Source: a virus
Length of the DNA stretch: 28,168 nt
Reading direction: 5' to 3' (one strand)
IMG/VR virus record: IMGVR_UViG_3300027980_000517
Coordinates: 1 to 28,168 of that record
Made by a program: the position numbers and the translations under genes. The notes below the pieces were generated by a model. That model did no database searches and was not told where the DNA came from. It was given only the letters and a program-made list of their open reading frames with translations. Numbering within the stretch: position 1 is the stretch's first letter; every line of letters starts with the position of its first letter. This document shows positions 6,446 through 21,221 of this stretch, one piece after another.

Positions 6446-6786
6446 TGATCCGCATCCCCGTTCGGCCCGGTGTCGCAAGCCAGCGGCTCACCATCAACCT
6501 CGACGGCTCGAGGTATGTGCTCCGGTTCCGCTGGCGCGAGCGAACGCAGCGGTGGGCCTACGCGATCGAGACGGCCGACGGCGAGGGCATCATCCGCGGG
6601 CGGCCCGTGCTTGTGGGTCGGCCGATGCTGGACCGCGTCGCACACCCGCGCGCGCCTCGGGGTTTGCTCGTCGCTGTCGATACATCAGGCGCCGACGCGG
6701 ACCCGGGCTTCGTCGACCTCGGCGACCGGGTGACCATCGTGTACACGCCCGCCGACGAGCTGGCCGAGGCACTCCGCGGGTCCTAG
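6445..6786 (+). CDS. baseplate plug protein (Pam3 gp18-like)
   Basis: The ATG at 6445 overlaps the preceding TGA by one base, giving 113 residues; the GTG at 6442 is an alternative start. The pattern L-T-I-N-L-D-G-S-R-Y-V-L-R-F-R-W-R-E-R, followed by W-A-Y-A-I and G-R-P-V-L-V-G-R-P-M-L, matches the small beta-rich baseplate plug domain described for cyanophage Pam3. That family typically reads '..v.LdG..y.l.l.wN.r...W.l.i...dG'. The stop lies in a CTAG that also ends the opposite-strand lipoprotein gene. In the usual order the hub gene follows directly; here it is 1 kb further on because a cargo gene intervenes. Confidence 0.7.
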   Translation: MIRIPVRPGVASQRLTINLDGSRYVLRFRWRERTQRWAYAIETADGEGIIRGRPVLVGRPMLDRVAHPRAPRGLLVAVDTSGADADPGFVDLGDRVTIVYTPADELAEALRGS

Positions 6787-7688
6787 TCGAGCTCGGGCAC
6801 TTCGAGGCCCGAGCAGATCTCGTAGAACTCGTCGCAGCGCGCTTCCTCTCGGCAGGTGATGCACTCCGGCGCCAGCAGGTCCGCCGTGTCGGCGTCAGCA
6901 TCGGCGCACACGTCGCCGCAGTTCGTGATCCAGCACTCATCCCAGACCCGTCGGCACGGACCGCAGGGGCGGGTGTAGTTGTCGACCTCGTCGAGGCACG
7001 CCTCGAGGTTGTCTCGGCCGACGCAGGGCGCAGCGAACTCTCCCGTGAAGTTCGAGGTTCGGTTGGCGAACCGCTCGCCAGCGTCGTCGAGATTCGAGCA
7101 CTCGCCACGCGGAAGCGGAACCTCCCATCCTGAACACTGCTCGAACTCCGCAATGACCGACGTCGTGGCAAGACAGTAGCCGCATCCGGGCTCGCGAGGA
7201 CACGCGTCCTCGCACGTCTCGAAGATCGCGTTCGCGGCATCGCGGAAGCAACCGCGGCACTCTCCCTCAAGCCCGAGGGTATCGAACTCGGCTTCGTAGC
7301 ACATGTGCTGGAACGGAAACTCCTCGGTGTCACGACATGCGTCGATCGCTTCGAGGACAAAGCCGAAGCCGCCTCGTTCATGATCGCCTTGAAGGTCGGA
7401 GAACTCGGAGTCCACACACAGCGACGGCCCGGTGTCGGCAGTGTCGGCCATGCCTCCATCCGTCGCGTCTTCAGCCACCGCATCGGTCGCGACATCGGGC
7501 CCCTCGGCGTCGACGTCCACGTCGGCCGCCCCAGCGCCAATGTCGCTGCCGTCGACCGCAGCATCCGACGCGACATCAGCTGCCGCACCTGCATCGCCCC
7601 CGTCGAGGATCGGCCCGCTCTGCAGACCTTCGCCGCCGCACCCACACACCAGCACCGCCACGGCAATCACCGCGCCCCATCGAAGCAT
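6783..7688 (-). CDS. Cys-rich lipoprotein, cargo gene within the tail operon
   Basis: The ATG at 7688 gives 301 residues. A GGAGGG lies 4 nt before it, which is why it is preferred to the in-frame ATG at 7700. The N terminus is a lipoprotein signal: a short M-L-R-W start, a hydrophobic core and V-C-G-C, with Cys17 the likely lipidated residue. Residues ~20-78 are an Asp/Ala/Gly/Thr-rich low-complexity linker. The remaining ~220 residues hold 22 cysteines in irregular pairs (C-x2-C, C-x3-C, C-x4-C, C-x5-C), suggesting a disulfide-bonded surface domain. Such linkers plus Cys-rich domains are common in Myxococcota and Bradymonadota surface proteins. It lies antisense in the baseplate operon and shares a CTAG stop with the plug gene. 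Function is unknown; a surface-altering lysogeny gene is a reasonable guess. Confidence 0.8.
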   Translation of the reverse strand: MLRWGAVIAVAVLVCGCGGEGLQSGPILDGGDAGAAADVASDAAVDGSDIGAGAADVDVDAEGPDVATDAVAEDATDGGMADTADTGPSLCVDSEFSDLQGDHERGGFGFVLEAIDACRDTEEFPFQHMCYEAEFDTLGLEGECRGCFRDAANAIFETCEDACPREPGCGYCLATTSVIAEFEQCSGWEVPLPRGECSNLDDAGERFANRTSNFTGEFAAPCVGRDNLEACLDEVDNYTRPCGPCRRVWDECWITNCGDVCADADADTADLLAPECITCREEARCDEFYEICSGLEVPELD

Positions 7689-7718
7689 CGCGCCCTCCAT
7701 CGGCTGTCGTGTGCTGAG

Positions 7719-7826: not shown

Positions 7827-8702
7827 ATGTCCTCCCCGCTCTACAACCGCCGCGTCGAGCTCGCCGTCGGCACCTACGGCGACACCGGACGCGTCTGGAG
7901 CGACCTGCGCACCACGTTCACAGTCCGGCACGTCCGCCGCAGCGCCCCGAACGCCGCGCGCGTCGAGGTCTACAACCTCTCGGCCGACTCGCGTGCATGG
8001 CTCGAGCAGCCGGACCGGGTGTGCTGGCTGCGTGCCGGGTACACCGGCGACGACGAGACCGCGTCCGTGCCACTCGTCCTCACCGGCGACGTCATGTTCG
8101 CCGAGCACGTGCGGAGCGGGCCGGACATCGTGACGCGCCTGCACGTTCGCGAGGGCGAGCGGGCCTTGCGCAACGCGTGGGTGTCGACGTCTACCGCTGG
8201 CGTGCGGACCCGCCGCGACCTGCTGGCCCGGGTCACCGACCACCTCGCTGCGGCAGGGCCGTTCGCGCCGACGGTGCAGGATGCGCTCGATGCGGCCGTC
8301 GGCGACGAGTGGTCTGGACCGGTGGGGTCGACGGTGATCGACGCCGGGGCGAACGACGCACTCGACGCCGCGATGCCGGACGGCTGGACGTGGACGATCG
8401 TCGACGGCGTGCTGCGGATCGTGCCGCCCACCGGCGAGCTCGACGGCACGGCCTACGTCCTCTCGCCCGACACCGGCCTGCTCGAGTCGCCGCGACACCG
8501 GGTGCGCACCACGCGCGGTCGTGTCCGTGCAGACGGCATCGAGGCCCGCTGTCTGCTGCTCGGCGAGCTGCGTCCGGGGCGGGTCGTCCGCGTCGAGTCG
8601 CGCGACATCACCGGCGACTTCGTCGCGACCGAGGTCGAGCACAGCGGCGACACGCACGCCGACCGGTGGGAAACGTCCCTGCTGTTGGAGCCGCGCCAAT
8701 GA
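7827..8702 (+). CDS. baseplate hub protein
   Basis: This 291-residue protein opens with Y-N-R-R-V-E-L-A-V, then F-T-V-R-H-V-R-R-S-A-P-N-A-A-R-V-E-V-Y-N-L-S. That resembles the 'f.v.k......N...v.iyNLs' start of hub proteins in KPP10/Pam3-like phages. It continues with W-L-R-A-G-Y and a V-L-T-G-D-V strand, and ends in a beta-rich region (G-L-L-E-S-P, L-R-P-G-R-V-V-R-V-E-S) like the oligomerisation part of gp27/gpD-type hubs. It overlaps the spike gene by 4 nt. It should form the ring to which the spike and tube attach. No clear ribosome binding site is seen; a 10-bp palindrome (7817-7826) abuts the ATG. Confidence 0.7.
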   Translation: MSSPLYNRRVELAVGTYGDTGRVWSDLRTTFTVRHVRRSAPNAARVEVYNLSADSRAWLEQPDRVCWLRAGYTGDDETASVPLVLTGDVMFAEHVRSGPDIVTRLHVREGERALRNAWVSTSTAGVRTRRDLLARVTDHLAAAGPFAPTVQDALDAAVGDEWSGPVGSTVIDAGANDALDAAMPDGWTWTIVDGVLRIVPPTGELDGTAYVLSPDTGLLESPRHRVRTTRGRVRADGIEARCLLLGELRPGRVVRVESRDITGDFVATEVEHSGDTHADRWETSLLLEPRQ

Positions 8703-9322
8703 CCCGCCCGACCCTCGACGAGGTCCTCACCGCGAAGGTGTACGCCGTGGCGTCCGCATGGGAGAGCGGTGGCCCTGCTCGGGTCGAGCGCTACGACGCC
8801 GAGGCGCACACCGTCGACGTGCTGCCCCTGCTGCAGCGAGAGGACCCGGCAACGGGCGAGGCGCGGTCGCGGCCTGTGCTGCCCGGCGTGCCGGTACACT
8901 CGGCGGCTGGCTCCGGCGGCGCATTCGTCGTCGAGCTCGCGAAGGGCGACGTCGTCTGGCTACTGCACGCGTCTCGGTCGATGGCGGCGTGGCGCGAGGG
9001 TGACCCGGCGAGCGAAGCGCCGAGCCCGCGTCGGCCGCGGTTCCCCCTCGGGTCGGCGATCGCGCTGCCGTTCATGCCGGGTGCAGCGGCGGTTTCGTCG
9101 CCGGCGCAGGTGCGGATCGGCGCGGACGGGACCGTCGCGATCGGAAACGGCACCGTGGACCTCGTCGCCACGCTGCGCGAGCTGATCGACCTGCTCACTG
9201 GTGGCGGTGTGGTGGACCCGCAGAGCGGCGCGCTGGCTCCGCTGGTGGATTCGCTGCTCGCTCCCCTGCAGGCGCGCCTTGAGGCGATGTCGGCGGGGCT
9301 ACTTGCGGTCGAAGCGAGATAG
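8699..9322 (+). CDS. baseplate spike protein (Gp138-like membrane-puncturing)
   Basis: The start is the ATG of an ATGA overlap with the hub gene; the frame is open further upstream, but that part is a shadow. The 207-residue product has V-E-R-Y-D-A-E-A-H-T-V-D-V-L-P-L, then P-V-L-P-G-V-P-V and a G-D-V-V-W-L-L-H strand. This is an OB-fold-like pattern typical of Gp138/gpV spike proteins ('v..yd...t..V.p.l'). It continues with F-P-L-G-S-A-I-A-L-P-F-M and a short repetitive beta region (V-R-I-G-A-D-G-T-V-A-I-G). It should form the central trimeric spike. Unusually, its C-terminal ~40 residues are predicted helical, not a metal-bearing tip. Confidence 0.75.
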   Translation: MTRPTLDEVLTAKVYAVASAWESGGPARVERYDAEAHTVDVLPLLQREDPATGEARSRPVLPGVPVHSAAGSGGAFVVELAKGDVVWLLHASRSMAAWREGDPASEAPSPRRPRFPLGSAIALPFMPGAAAVSSPAQVRIGADGTVAIGNGTVDLVATLRELIDLLTGGGVVDPQSGALAPLVDSLLAPLQARLEAMSAGLLAVEAR

Positions 9323-9335
9323 GTCAGACCTGACC
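9322..9335. repeat. inverted repeat at convergent gene ends
   Basis: GGTCAG and CTGACC are perfect inverted arms with AC between them. The element spans the end of the spike stop codon and the stop of the opposite-strand cargo gene. There is no T tract on either side, so it is not a standard intrinsic terminator. It may be a weak bidirectional hairpin. Confidence 0.4.
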
Positions 9336-10427
9336 GCGTGCGTTCTCCCGTGCTCGAAGCCTTGCCGCCACCTTCCCCATGGTTGTGCGGAGACTCTCGC
9401 CGCGAATCCGCTCTTGCCGCATCCGGGCGCGGTCAAGCAGCTCGCTCGGATCGTTCCAGCACGCATGGATGGCCCAGTGCAGCGACGCAACCAGTGCTCC
9501 AGACTCGGCTTCAATGACATCTGCGACGGGCTCTCCCGTTTTCAATTCAAGCTCGCCATGAGCGACCTTGTTCCGGACCTCGAAGGCTCGATCAAGGCTA
9601 TCCTCCAGAGTTCCGGGGTACGGGAGGTGAAGCACGCCTTTATCTGAGGCCTCGTTCTTCAAGGCCTTGAGCCCCGCGAACGATTCTAGCCTACTCCTCG
9701 AAACACCTCGTATCCGCAATTCCGTTCGAAGTGCGTCTTCTAGCGCGACCGCGGCCATCACTACTTGAGCCCGGTTGGAATGCTCGCGGCTCAGTGAAGC
9801 GGCTGCCAGCTCAAGAGCCGTGCCAAACGTCCTCGACACGCGATCGCATGCGTATCGCCACGCGGGTTCTGCTGAGTCGGTAGGGTTCGAGAATCGCAGA
9901 TCAACTGCTCTCCGGTCTATCGCCGTCGAGCTCTCGCCTTCCCTGCGATCGCGATGGTGCCCTGGTGCCGGGACTGGTGAGTGGTGCTGGCTCCACTCAA
10001 GCCGCTCTCCCGTCCAGGCTTCCCGATACAATTGGGCTCCATGTCTACCGCGGTACCAGGTCATCCCATCGAAGAACCTGTGCAGAAGTCGCTGTGATCG
10101 TTCGCGTGGCCTCAAGAAGGAGATCGCCAGTTCAGTGAAGTCCGCCGAAGATCGGGTATCTCCCGGGATCGCCACCGTCCCCGCAATCGAATTGAGGACG
10201 GAAGAGTAGCGGTCATCAACATTGACCGTGCACCGAACCTCTATGACCGCATCGGTTGGATTCGAATCGCGCGCGACCAGCCGATCGCTAGGCTTGGGCC
10301 ATCTCCGCTCCTCGCCACGGAGCGACACGATGTGCTCGACATCCTCCCAATTGACCTTCTCAACAACTTTCCCTCCGCCGTGAGTGAATCCCATCACCCT
10401 GGATGTCGATACGAGTTCAACCTCCAT
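9324..10427 (-). CDS. HEPN-motif protein, probable defence/exclusion cargo
   Basis: The start at 10427 has a well-placed GGAGG 6 nt upstream, giving 367 residues; an in-frame ATG at 10451 is less likely. Residues ~1-200 are not recognised. The C-terminal part has a helix A-V-A-L-E-D-A-L-R-T-E-L (226-237) and R-N-K-V-A-H-G with Arg285 and His290. This Rx4H (RNxxAH) motif is the active-site signature of HEPN ribonucleases, many of which act in abortive infection. Base composition is clearly lower in GC than its neighbours: 9661-9720 counts 55% G+C, against 73% at 11461-11520. It lies antisense between the spike and gp25-like wedge genes. An RNA-cleaving exclusion protein is inferred. Alternatively, the motif may be structural, as in non-catalytic HEPN proteins. 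Confidence 0.65.
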   Translation of the reverse strand: MEVELVSTSRVMGFTHGGGKVVEKVNWEDVEHIVSLRGEERRWPKPSDRLVARDSNPTDAVIEVRCTVNVDDRYSSVLNSIAGTVAIPGDTRSSADFTELAISFLRPRERSQRLLHRFFDGMTWYRGRHGAQLYREAWTGERLEWSQHHSPVPAPGHHRDRREGESSTAIDRRAVDLRFSNPTDSAEPAWRYACDRVSRTFGTALELAAASLSREHSNRAQVVMAAVALEDALRTELRIRGVSRSRLESFAGLKALKNEASDKGVLHLPYPGTLEDSLDRAFEVRNKVAHGELELKTGEPVADVIEAESGALVASLHWAIHACWNDPSELLDRARMRQERIRGESLRTTMGKVAARLRARENARGQV

Positions 10428-10474
10428 TGGTAGCCTCCGGTCCCTGACCATGCCTCTGAGCGACCAAGTCCAGA

Positions 10475-10486: not shown

Positions 10487-10918
10487 ATGACGTTGCTCGC
10501 CCTCAAGCCCACCACCCTCGACGTCCTCGACCTCGCCAGCGGCGGATCCCGCCTGTCCGGCATCGATGAGGTCGCCCAGCGCGTCCGCATCAGCCTCGCC
10601 ATCGGCAAGGGCGAGTGGTGGCGCGACGGCTCGCGCGGCCTCGACCTGCGCGGCGTCTGGCTCGTGAACAGCCCGTCTCCGCTGGGGATGGAAGCGGACT
10701 TCCGCCGCGTCGTCCTCGCGGTCCCGGGTGTCACCGGCGTCCGCGACGTCGCCGTGACCATCGACCGTGCGCGCCGGACCGTGTCGGTGCGCGCCGTCGT
10801 GCTGACCGCTGAGGGTTCGATCGCCGTCAGCAGCGACGGCGACCCGGCGACGCTCGGCGACCTGCTGCGCTGGCGCATGGTCGACACCCACGGCCCCTCG
10901 ATCGCCCCGGCCCCGTAG
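10487..10918 (+). CDS. baseplate wedge protein (gp25 / DUF2634-like)
   Basis: The protein has 143 residues. G-I-D-E-V-A-Q-R-V-R-I-S-L-A-I-G-K-G-E-W is the core of gp25-like baseplate wedge proteins ('...ei.q.i.~rL....gew'). This is followed by N-S-P at ~residue 61 and a strand-rich C-terminal half ending V-S-V-R-A-V-V-L-T. Family length is about 110-145 residues. It lies 2 nt before the baseplate J gene, the normal pairing of wedge proteins. It anchors the first sheath ring to the baseplate. Confidence 0.75.
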   Translation: MTLLALKPTTLDVLDLASGGSRLSGIDEVAQRVRISLAIGKGEWWRDGSRGLDLRGVWLVNSPSPLGMEADFRRVVLAVPGVTGVRDVAVTIDRARRTVSVRAVVLTAEGSIAVSSDGDPATLGDLLRWRMVDTHGPSIAPAP

Positions 10919-10920
10919 AC

Positions 10921-12093
10921 ATGGCACACCCGACCGAAACGCAGTGGACGCCCGCGGGCCTCGATGCGCCGACCCTCGACGAGTGGACGTCGTACTTGCT
11001 CGAGCTCGTCGAAGCACGCAGCGGCGAGCGCATCGTCCGCGACGTGTCGTCGCCGGTGTACGCGCTGATCCTCGGCACGGCCGACGGCCTCGTCCGCGCG
11101 ATGGAGCTGGCGAACGAGACGATCCTCGCGATCGACCCGGCGACCGCAGCGGGCGAGGCGCTCGACATCGCTGCCCGACACGCCGGCATCTCGCGGCTCA
11201 TCGCTTCGCCGTCGACCGCGCTGGTCACCCTCACGGGAACCGCGGGCGTCATCGTGCCGGCCGGGACGTGGGTGTCCGACGCTGCGACGACGACGACCTT
11301 CGCCACCGACGAGGTCGTCGCCATCGGCAGCGGCGGGACGGCCGACGCCGCGGTCACCGCGATCGAGGTCGGTCCCGCGACGGTCGACGACGTCTCGAAC
11401 ATCGTCACCCCGGTCGCCGGCCTCGACTCCGTGGCTCTGGCATCCGGGGCCATCGTGTCGCCCGGCCGCAACCTCGAGACGGACGCCGAGCTGCGCGAAC
11501 GGCTCGACCTCGCTCGCTTCGCGGGTGGGCGCGGGACGCGGGGCGCCATCGAGGCCGCGCTGCAGGCCGTCGACGGTGTCCAGTATGCCCGCGTCTACGC
11601 CAACCGCTCCGACGAGGTCGACGCCGAGTACGGCGGCATCCCGGCACACCATTACCGGCCGGTCATCTACCCCGCCGTCGCCGACGCGCTGGTGGGCGCC
11701 GCGCTCATCAGCCAGGAACCGGTGACAGCAACGTCGTTCGGTGCCGAATCGTACACGGACCCGGACGACGCTGAGCACACGGTGTCGTGGGACGTCGCCA
11801 CCGAGGTCGCCGTCGAGGTCCGTGTCACCGGCGTCCGGCTCGGCCCCGGCGCCCCGCTGGACTACGCCGCGCAGATCGCGGCCGCGTTCGCTGCCACCGT
11901 CGACGAGCTCGACATCGGTGACGACCTCGAGGCGGTGCCGCTCTACGCGCCGCTCGGGCAGCTGGGGTGGGTGCAGCGTGGGATCATCGAGGTGCGCATC
12001 GCCGAGGGGGTGTGGGGCGCGTCCGTGGCGATCGACCACGACGAGGTGGCGACGATGGGTGTGGACGACGTGACGGTGACGCTGGAGGCGTAG
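10921..12093 (+). CDS. baseplate J-like wedge protein
   Basis: The 390-residue product starts with a helical region, then A-A-G-E-A-L-D-I-A-A-R-H-A-G-I-S-R at residues ~77-93. This matches 'a.G..Ld..a...Gi.R', the hallmark of baseplate J proteins. Next come V-P-A-G-T-W-V-S (about 112-119) and the N-L-E-T-D-A-E-L-R-E-R-L segment (about 183-194), equivalent to 'gadpEsDeelR.R'. The G-A-I-E-A-A-L-Q-A-V-D-G-V segment matches the family's 'v..al..v.GV..a.V'. It forms the wedge that triggers sheath contraction. It is about average for the shorter members of the family. Confidence 0.9.
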   Translation: MAHPTETQWTPAGLDAPTLDEWTSYLLELVEARSGERIVRDVSSPVYALILGTADGLVRAMELANETILAIDPATAAGEALDIAARHAGISRLIASPSTALVTLTGTAGVIVPAGTWVSDAATTTTFATDEVVAIGSGGTADAAVTAIEVGPATVDDVSNIVTPVAGLDSVALASGAIVSPGRNLETDAELRERLDLARFAGGRGTRGAIEAALQAVDGVQYARVYANRSDEVDAEYGGIPAHHYRPVIYPAVADALVGAALISQEPVTATSFGAESYTDPDDAEHTVSWDVATEVAVEVRVTGVRLGPGAPLDYAAQIAAAFAATVDELDIGDDLEAVPLYAPLGQLGWVQRGIIEVRIAEGVWGASVAIDHDEVATMGVDDVTVTLEA

Positions 12094-19435: not shown

Positions 19436-20575
19436 CTATCGGTTTCCAGAGGACCGCCCGCCTTCAATCACGTCGAATCGAGGCCTGGTCGGAGCGCTCG
19501 GCTCTGGCTCCAGCATGTGGCCCGGAAGGTGGTGTCGATATCGTTCGCGGAATGACGCGGGACGAACGCCGACGACACGAGAGAGCGTGTCGACGTGGTA
19601 CCCCTGTGACTTCACGAAATCGAAGAGTCGCCGCAGCACGGTCCCTGATTCGCGCGCCGGCTGGTCCGGTTCGTTTCGACCCCACCTGATTTGAATCTGC
19701 TTCATGAACTGGGACACCTCGTCCCGCTCCAATAGTCCGACGTCTCTCGCGCGATAGACCCCGGCCCGAAGCGAGATCCCGTACTCGGTCTTGGCGAGGC
19801 GCAGAGTACGAAGTGAGACCCTACCGAGCACAGCCTCTACCTCTTCGGCCGGGAACAGCAGTTCCGCTGCGAACGCGTTGGCTTCATCTTCGAGTACCGA
19901 CTCGTCGACGTATGCCGGATGCAGCAGGGAATGCATCAGGAGGTGACCAAGCTCGTGCGCGATAGTGAAGCGGGATCTGTCTGGGGGGAGCGTCGACGAT
20001 ACGAAGATCAGCGGCGGGGAGCCTGCAGGGCTCGAGAGGCTCATGCCGGACACGCCCGCGGGGATCTTATCCGTCGTGACCACAACTGCGCCTGCGCGCT
20101 CCGCGACTGATGTTACGGAGCGTATCGGCCCGCTCGGCAACTCAAGCCGGCGGCGCAAGGTGGAGGCAAACTCCATCGCCGACGCGCCTTCTCGCGCGGC
20201 GAAGTCGTGCACGTTTGGGGCGCTCTGTAGGTCGACGAGGTCGAAGATTCGCCGAAGGTCATTCACGATGAAGCAGTACTCGGCCTCCCATCGGTTCAGA
20301 TCGCCTCGGCGAGCCTTCTTGAGCTTCCGGAAGTTCGCGAGCCCTGGGAGTCCGTACCAGTTGAACTCCATCCGAAGGAACTCGGGCTCAACGCCCAATG
20401 CTTCGCACAGTCGATCCGCAGTGTCCGCCTCCGTCGTCCCGCCAAGATTCTCCCATTGAGAGACTCGCGGCTGGGTCACATTGATCTTGGCCGCCAGACC
20501 TTTCTGAGACAGGCCCAAAGCCAGTCGGGCTCTGCGAATGTTCTCGCCACGGAGCTCAACCACCAGCTTCCTCAT
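19436..20575 (-). CDS. XRE-family HTH fused to ImmA/IrrE metallopeptidase
   Basis: The ATG at 20575 gives 379 residues. Residues ~8-62 form an XRE/Cro HTH (N-I-R-R-A-R-L-A-L-G-L-S-Q, then V-T-Q-P-R-V-S-Q-W-E). Residues ~150-250 carry the zinc peptidase: F-T-I-A-H-E-L-G-H with His207, Glu208 and His211, followed by E-D-E-A-N-A-F-A-A-E-L-L, giving the third-ligand glutamate around 229-231. These fusions act as phage regulators or as antitoxin-like sensors inactivated by proteolysis. The C-terminal ~100 residues end in a basic, disordered tail. The upstream gene overlaps it by 20 nt, so the two are translationally coupled. Base composition is lower in GC than the backbone (20221-20280 counts 53% G+C). 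Confidence 0.85.
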   Translation of the reverse strand: MRKLVVELRGENIRRARLALGLSQKGLAAKINVTQPRVSQWENLGGTTEADTADRLCEALGVEPEFLRMEFNWYGLPGLANFRKLKKARRGDLNRWEAEYCFIVNDLRRIFDLVDLQSAPNVHDFAAREGASAMEFASTLRRRLELPSGPIRSVTSVAERAGAVVVTTDKIPAGVSGMSLSSPAGSPPLIFVSSTLPPDRSRFTIAHELGHLLMHSLLHPAYVDESVLEDEANAFAAELLFPAEEVEAVLGRVSLRTLRLAKTEYGISLRAGVYRARDVGLLERDEVSQFMKQIQIRWGRNEPDQPARESGTVLRRLFDFVKSQGYHVDTLSRVVGVRPASFRERYRHHLPGHMLEPEPSAPTRPRFDVIEGGRSSGNR

Positions 20576-21221
20576 GTTCGGTGTTCCGCTGGGTTGCTGG
20601 ACCGAAGGTCCATCCACTTGCTTCGTCTTCAGCTGCGTTCGTTGAGGCGACCCGAACCGGGCGTTCCTCGATTTCGCCGGAGAACTGAATCTCCGGCCAC
20701 ACGGCCGTCTCGACGATTCCGTTCGCGTCGAGAAGCGAAAGGTCCCACGCACCGCTGGGCAGGCGAACGCCAACGTGCCACAGCAGCCACACCACCGAGA
20801 CTTCGCCGATGTCGAGTGTCATCTGGCCCGTCTCGACGATGTCACGCCCTCGATCGCTGATCGGCGGATTGGCAGGGCGTCCCTCACCGTCCGATCTCCG
20901 AAGTCGAATGACGAACTCACCGTCGATGAGGAAGTCGACGGAGCAGTGCGATCCGATGACCGAACACCCCTTCCACCCGAGCTCGTCCAGTTCGTGCCGA
21001 AGCTGATCGCAATACAACGCCCACAGGGTCGTGCCGTGGCGAGGGACCGTCGCCTGTGCAAGTTCAACTCGCAAGCCCCGGAGCGCGCGCGCCAATGCCA
21101 ACCGAAGCTCCCTCTGCCGAGTCGGCCCGAGCCGGTCTACGACATAGGACAGAGAGAGAATGGGTTCTGCTGAGCGTAGTAGTGCCACGAGTTCCCTTGG
21201 GTGCGTGGGAGTACCCAACAT
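20556..21221 (-). CDS. unknown partner gene coupled to XRE-ImmA
   Basis: The product has 221 residues if it starts at ATG 21221; an ATG at 21287 would add 22 residues across the AT-rich repeat region and is less favoured. No family is recognised. Visible parts are an N-terminal helical half (R-Q-R-E-L-R-L-A-L-A-R-A-L-R), and a central C-S-V-D-F-L-I-D-G-E-F-V-I-R-L-R-R-S strand region that resembles a nuclease-like or binding core only loosely. A beta-rich C-terminal half follows (L-P-S-G-A-W-D-L-S-L-L-D). It overlaps the XRE-ImmA start by 20 nt. Pairing with XRE-ImmA suggests an effector or toxin held in check by the peptidase protein, but this is inference. GC content is lower than in the late genes. 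Confidence 0.6.
   Translation of the reverse strand: MLGTPTHPRELVALLRSAEPILSLSYVVDRLGPTRQRELRLALARALRGLRVELAQATVPRHGTTLWALYCDQLRHELDELGWKGCSVIGSHCSVDFLIDGEFVIRLRRSDGEGRPANPPISDRGRDIVETGQMTLDIGEVSVVWLLWHVGVRLPSGAWDLSLLDANGIVETAVWPEIQFSGEIEERPVRVASTNAAEDEASGWTFGPATQRNTEHEEAGG

Follow-up and report, generated by a model that had tools for sequence, protein, structure and literature searches.

A low-GC antisense gene inside the baseplate operon

The window analysed here is a stretch of 28,168 nucleotides (IMG/VR virus record IMGVR_UViG_3300027980_000517, positions 1 to 28,168) that carries a tail operon with genes in the order neck/tail completion, tail terminator, sheath, tube-like protein, tape measure, hub, spike, gp25-like and J-like. 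The operon runs on the plus strand around the baseplate genes, and the interval between the spike and gp25-like genes is taken up by a single gene on the opposite strand. The features of this region are as follows:

7827-8702, plus strand: baseplate hub gene (phrog_196, E = 7.1e-50)
8699-9322, plus strand: spike gene with a Gp138-type N-terminal domain, the left border of the cargo interval (PF18352 at 8699-9319, E = 2.4e-9)
9324-10427, minus strand: cargo gene of 367 amino acids, with a frame longer than those in all shuffles, low GC and predicted helices
10434-10438, minus strand: Shine-Dalgarno sequence GGAGG, separated by a 6-nt spacer from the ATG at 10427
10487-10918, plus strand: gp25-like baseplate wedge gene, the right border of the cargo interval (phrog_120 at 10487-10915, E = 1.1e-14)
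10921-12093, plus strand: baseplate J-like wedge gene, used as the anchor for finding relatives (PF04865, E = 1.4e-19; phrog_6)

On the minus strand, the frame translates from the ATG at 10427 to a TGA at 9324-9326 into a protein of 367 amino acids. Another in-frame ATG is located at 10451, and a Shine-Dalgarno sequence is present for the 10427 start only; no promoter of the gene was recognised. With the spike gene stopping at 9322 and the gp25-like gene starting at 10487, the antisense gene occupies nearly the whole gap between them, and no rival long frame filling this interval was found. Frames of at least 370 codons occurred in 0 of 300 dinucleotide shuffles of the interval, the longest reaching 322 codons. 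The composition of the gene is foreign to its surroundings, as the GC content of the interval is 0.60 compared to 0.71 for the rest of the operon, and the GC3 value of the gene is 0.65 compared to 0.86-0.96 for its tail-gene neighbours. The first-pass annotation had described a lower-GC gene on the opposite strand with its own ribosome binding site, and this observation is confirmed by the frame, the ribosome site, the fit between the neighbours, the GC gap and the shuffles. The names it gave to the two neighbours, spike and gp25-like, agree with the PF18352 and phrog_120 matches.

The heptamer GGTCAGG (minus strand) is found at both ends of the cargo gene, within 9322-9335 and at 10443-10449, and a small palindrome, GGTCAGACCTGACC, is located at the convergent stop codons at the end of the gene. 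These repeats and the palindrome may be due to chance or may represent the trace of an insertion.

Further along the window lie two genes that bear on the lifestyle of the phage:

19436-20773, minus strand: fusion of HTH_3 with an IrrE/ImmA-type peptidase (PF06114), 444 amino acids
26906-28168: integrase

The fusion may regulate the lysogeny module. Since the window contains both an integrase and an HTH-IrrE gene, a temperate lifestyle is indicated for this contractile-tail phage. The sole other contig found to carry the cargo gene, IMGVR_UViG_3300005590_000097, is 100% identical across the overlap and is probably the same virus assembled again; it reaches 3.35 kb further upstream and there adds a head maturation protease and the major head protein.

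A second antisense gene is present in the tail operon at 6783-7700 of the window (minus strand), flanked by a phrog_349 structural gene and by the hub gene. Its product is a Cys-rich predicted lipoprotein of 305 amino acids, in which a lipobox is followed by an Asp/Ala-rich spacer; the gene has a GC content of 66%, and no family match was found for the protein. We take the style of this lipoprotein to resemble that of Myxococcota-type bacterial lipoproteins, which would be a hint at the host. The gene could be surface or superinfection-exclusion cargo.

A putative HEPN domain in the C-terminal part

The cargo protein can be divided into an unrecognised N-terminal part (residues 1 to ~185) and a HEPN-like C-terminal part (~186-325). 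HEPN domains fold into four helices, with an R-x4-6-H motif, in which N, D or H follows the arginine, at the end of helix 3, and an Ex3[KR] motif in helix 2 (PMC3710099). Both motifs are found in the C-terminal part:

9558-9575, minus strand: encodes R285-N-K-V-A-H290, which would be the catalytic HEPN motif (RNxxAHG, frequency of 0.00025 among shuffles)
9726-9740, minus strand: encodes E230-D-A-L-R234, which matches Ex3[KR] and lies in predicted helix 2 (motif defined in PMC3710099)

The translation indeed contains R-N-K-V-A-H at residues 285-290, as had been noted before, with an asparagine directly following the arginine. Rx4-6H, named earlier as the HEPN signature, is not informative by itself, as the protein has 4 matches to this pattern and shuffles lead one to expect 4.7. 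The informative form is RNxxAHG, which arises in 0.00025 (0.025%) of shuffles, while RN...HG together with Ex3[KR] positioned 38-66 residues earlier arises in 0.0007 (0.07%). Single-sequence AlphaFold2 models, of poor confidence (pLDDT of 37 for the whole protein and 52 for the C-terminal part), place E230-DAL-R234 inside a predicted helix at 219-239 and have RNKVAH closing a predicted helix at 274-289, an order of helices that matches HEPN.

Among Pfam families, the best match of the C-terminal part, and its sole one, is to a HEPN family, HEPN_RiboL-PSP (PF18735). The match aligns at the catalytic motif but spans only ~30 residues and is sub-threshold (E = 0.17-0.26, ~12 bits versus a cut-off of 28.4); no Pfam match of the cargo protein exceeded the cut-off. 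TraH (E = 0.069) and Tetrabrachion (E = 0.22), which were returned with the full-length protein, lie far below the cut-off and were dismissed. PADLOC and NCBIfam scans of the protein gave no match. Fold searches with the low-confidence AlphaFold2 model did not single out HEPN proteins; the HEPN protein AbiV (9bj7) was returned at rank 32 (Z = 5.0), amid unrelated helical bundles, which is evidence neither for nor against the assignment. The earlier proposal of a HEPN protein is partly supported, by the motif pair, the predicted helices and the sub-threshold profile match, while its fold is not confirmed by models with pLDDT values of 37-52. These three lines make a HEPN domain likely, and we place good confidence in the assignment of the C-terminal part.

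Apart from the duplicate contig, no homologues were detected in viral contigs or, using tblastn, in phages and plasmids, either with the whole protein or with its two halves, and genome contigs contained no homologue of the whole protein. The contig scans require an exact pattern of eight residues, which diverged relatives would escape. When the J and sheath proteins of the window were used as queries, they matched the same duplicate contig only, and close relatives with an empty site are therefore not available for comparison. A search of viral contigs with a degenerate DNA pattern for F[DE]xRNxxAHG returned no homologue of the cargo protein. It did return a few phage-borne HEPN-like proteins of ~190-210 amino acids, at L019 (near 4500, plus strand), L020 (near 6284, minus strand) and L023 (near 2971, minus strand). 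They carry FEFRNSLAHG or FDFRNTIAHG, their HEPN Pfam matches are likewise sub-threshold, and they are probable uncharacterised phage-borne HEPN proteins.

Comparison with the Tha system

The closest parallel that we considered is Tha, a tail-activated HEPN anti-phage system of the Staphylococcus aureus prophages 80alpha and phiNM2 (PMC11087260). Tha-1 of 80alpha, a protein of 301 amino acids, was shown to be a HEPN RNase (HEPN domain at 184-296, motif R265NSIMH270) that is activated by tail proteins, and its N-terminus lacks a recognisable domain (PMC11087260). When Tha was included in our Pfam scan as a control, it remained below every cut-off (DUF4145, E = 0.025; HepT-like, E = 0.029). Since a proven HEPN protein also scores sub-threshold, the weak HEPN_RiboL-PSP match of the cargo protein is not disqualifying, although the matches of Tha extend over ~90 residues and that of the cargo protein over ~30.

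Both are single genes encoded by prophages, antisense to a phage gene on the other strand, with an unrecognised N-terminus and a C-terminal HEPN region, which in the cargo protein is a predicted one. The two proteins share ALExxxR and RNxxxHG, spaced by 53 residues in Tha and by 55 in the cargo protein. A BLAST comparison of the whole proteins aligned the motif region only (E = 0.20; 18 residues, 8 identities). The score of the C-terminal alignment was reached by 11 of 1000 shuffles; for the L019 protein the corresponding number was 4 of 1000, a value that is not independent because L019 was found through the motif. Similarity between the N-terminal parts of Tha and the cargo protein is at shuffle level only. 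As whole-length homology was not found, the cargo protein is not filed in the Tha family; by analogy, it may nevertheless work like Tha.

The settings of the two genes differ. tha is part of the lysogeny (cI) module, whereas the cargo gene lies inside the late tail operon. tha is also overlapped by the gene for its inhibitor, ith, but no inhibitor was seen for the cargo gene: the list of open reading frames contains no convincing overlapping ith-like small gene, small genes being hard to call. Tha must be switched off when its prophage is induced, and antisense transcription plays a minor part in this beside the inhibitor protein (PMC11087260).

The spike-gp25 interval as a cargo site in relatives

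To place the locus in context, we surveyed 80 viral contigs with phiAO1-like J proteins, 4 contigs from a second query and 9 phage records, which yielded 88 measurable loci. This survey is anchored on one clade, that of phiAO1-like J proteins, so that it is biased and its loci are not independent; within it, a gap of more than 250 bp separates the spike and gp25 genes in 22 of the 88 loci, compared to 2 of 88 for gp25-J and 2 of 81 for hub-spike. Spike-gp25 cargo occurs in 11 of the 45 clusters that form at 90% J identity. The GC content of the cargo is below that of the flanks in all 22 loci. The comparison runs across distant phages, and distant relatives have the order hub-spike-gp25-J in common. 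The phages of Vibrio, Pectobacterium, Klebsiella and Acinetobacter that were examined show a closed interval, while Psychrobacter phage pOW20-A has two other genes in it and Acetobacter phage phiAO1 (LC644971) has an antisense catalase gene in exactly this position. Genes identified in the survey include the following:

L012, 1608-3731, minus strand: large catalase of ~707 amino acids, antisense baseplate-operon cargo of Acetobacter-type prophages (also in L025-L031 and L033)
L026, 1100-3001, minus strand: SIR2-TPR gene (PADLOC SIR2-family matches to 2.6e-18)
L029, 1100-3001, minus strand: gene of the same length as the SIR2-TPR gene of L026
L033, 1980-2894, minus strand: PDC-S14 candidate defence gene (E = 2.4e-100)
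L036, sense orientation: non-specific (secreted) nuclease, spike-gp25 cargo

The antisense SIR2-TPR and PDC-S14 genes adjoin the antisense catalase gene in phiAO1-like prophages. The catalase frame of L032 appears broken. At L057, a gap of 1.7 kb is located between the gp25-like and J-like genes, possibly a second cargo position.

phiAO1 and the related prophages (L025-L033) share with the window phage the arrangement hub-spike-[antisense cargo]-gp25-J. Their cargo is a catalase, in some cases together with SIR2-TPR or PDC-S14, whereas that of the window phage is HEPN-like, and the J proteins of phiAO1 and the window phage are only 26% identical. The gaps, the GC values and the identities of the cargo lead us to regard the spike-gp25 interval as an optional cargo site that includes defence-type genes, a reading that is well supported. 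This bears out the earlier suggestion that the baseplate region serves as a cargo site. The cargo is not solely defensive, as catalase, secreted nuclease and lipoprotein-like genes occupy the same interval.

Similar arrangements have been described as the defence hotspots of P2-like phages and P4 satellites (PMC9122126). These share with the spike-gp25 site a locus of 1-5 kb in which conserved phage genes flank variable, partly defensive cargo, and in our clade-anchored survey the interval likewise holds variable cargo, including several defence genes, between conserved flanks. The P2/P4 hotspots are located next to cos, or between cI and the integrase gene, whereas the new site lies between spike and gp25 in the baseplate operon and, unlike them, has several cargo genes antisense to the late operon. 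A cargo site at the spike-gp25 junction is not described in the open-access literature that we searched, and an earlier report elsewhere is possible; the paper on phiAO1 mentions neither the catalase nor the baseplate. As a docking site for cargo, the spike-gp25 junction seems not to have been reported before.

Discussion

Several explanations of the antisense gene can be compared. Its position inside the baseplate operon would suit a tail structural or assembly gene, and long antisense frames are frequent in high-GC DNA, which would suit a spurious open reading frame. Against the former stand the opposite strand, the GC difference (60% versus 71%) and the finding that the interval is either closed or occupied by other genes in relatives. 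Conservation as a structural gene is not seen, as most relatives have a closed interval and the searches found no relative of the protein. Against the latter, none of the shuffles produced a frame as long, and the interval contains no competing gene in sense orientation. On the basis of the shuffles, the GC content and the variable interval we rejected both, and their probability is very low.

It is also conceivable that the gene is lysogenic-conversion or other cargo without a HEPN domain, with RNKVAHG occurring by coincidence in a different helical domain. The low pLDDT of the models and the outcome of the fold searches leave room for this, as do the catalase, nuclease and lipoprotein-like cargo genes of relatives, but the rarity among shuffles of RN...HG accompanied by Ex3[KR] at the right distance and the position of the sole C-terminal Pfam match, a HEPN family on the motif itself, make it improbable. 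A HEPN RNase might instead act as a toxin of a toxin-antitoxin or prophage-stabilisation system, or as a stress RNase, its N-terminal half being self-inhibitory. Motif rarity and Ex3[KR] spacing apply equally to such a protein, and HEPN proteins are common in toxin-antitoxin pairs (PMC3710099). The cargo protein is alone in its interval, with no partner gene, and single-gene defence proteins with an additional N-terminal part match it more closely. HEPN toxins are usually paired with a nucleotidyltransferase or another antitoxin. We consider a toxin of this kind unlikely, if the least unlikely of these alternatives.

The reading that we favour, with moderate confidence, is that of a prophage-borne HEPN abortive-infection gene working like Tha. 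A temperate myovirus would carry the gene as cargo that acts during lysogeny. The C-terminal half of the protein is predicted to be, most likely, a metal-independent HEPN RNase, and its N-terminal half would most likely be a regulatory part by which a product of the infecting phage is sensed, in line with the superinfection exclusion and the sensing N-terminus suggested earlier from the sequence. The HEPN dimer would stay inactive until the N-terminal part meets this product; once activated, it would cut RNA of the cell, and growth would stop before the invader multiplies, as with Tha. Given its antisense position within the late tail operon, the gene is predicted to be silenced when its own prophage is induced: strong late transcription would run against it, helping to switch it off and limiting self-harm.

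A more far-reaching version appears doubtful to us, namely that the spike-gp25 interval is a widespread, undescribed hotspot with antisense auto-shutoff and that the gene encodes a new HEPN sensor-effector, with an N-terminus of a new type that is possibly tuned to tail proteins. What we regard as likely is that this orphan gene encodes a HEPN effector in a cargo site recurring across distant phages. If so, a further HEPN effector, an orphan whose N-terminal part is unrecognised, would join those known. The site is of greater interest than the gene. Searches of prophage and virome contigs for new anti-phage genes could then start from the conserved spike-gp25 pair, as has been done with the P2/P4 hotspots, and the antisense placement suggests how a defence gene may be kept in a prophage with no harm to the lytic growth of that phage.
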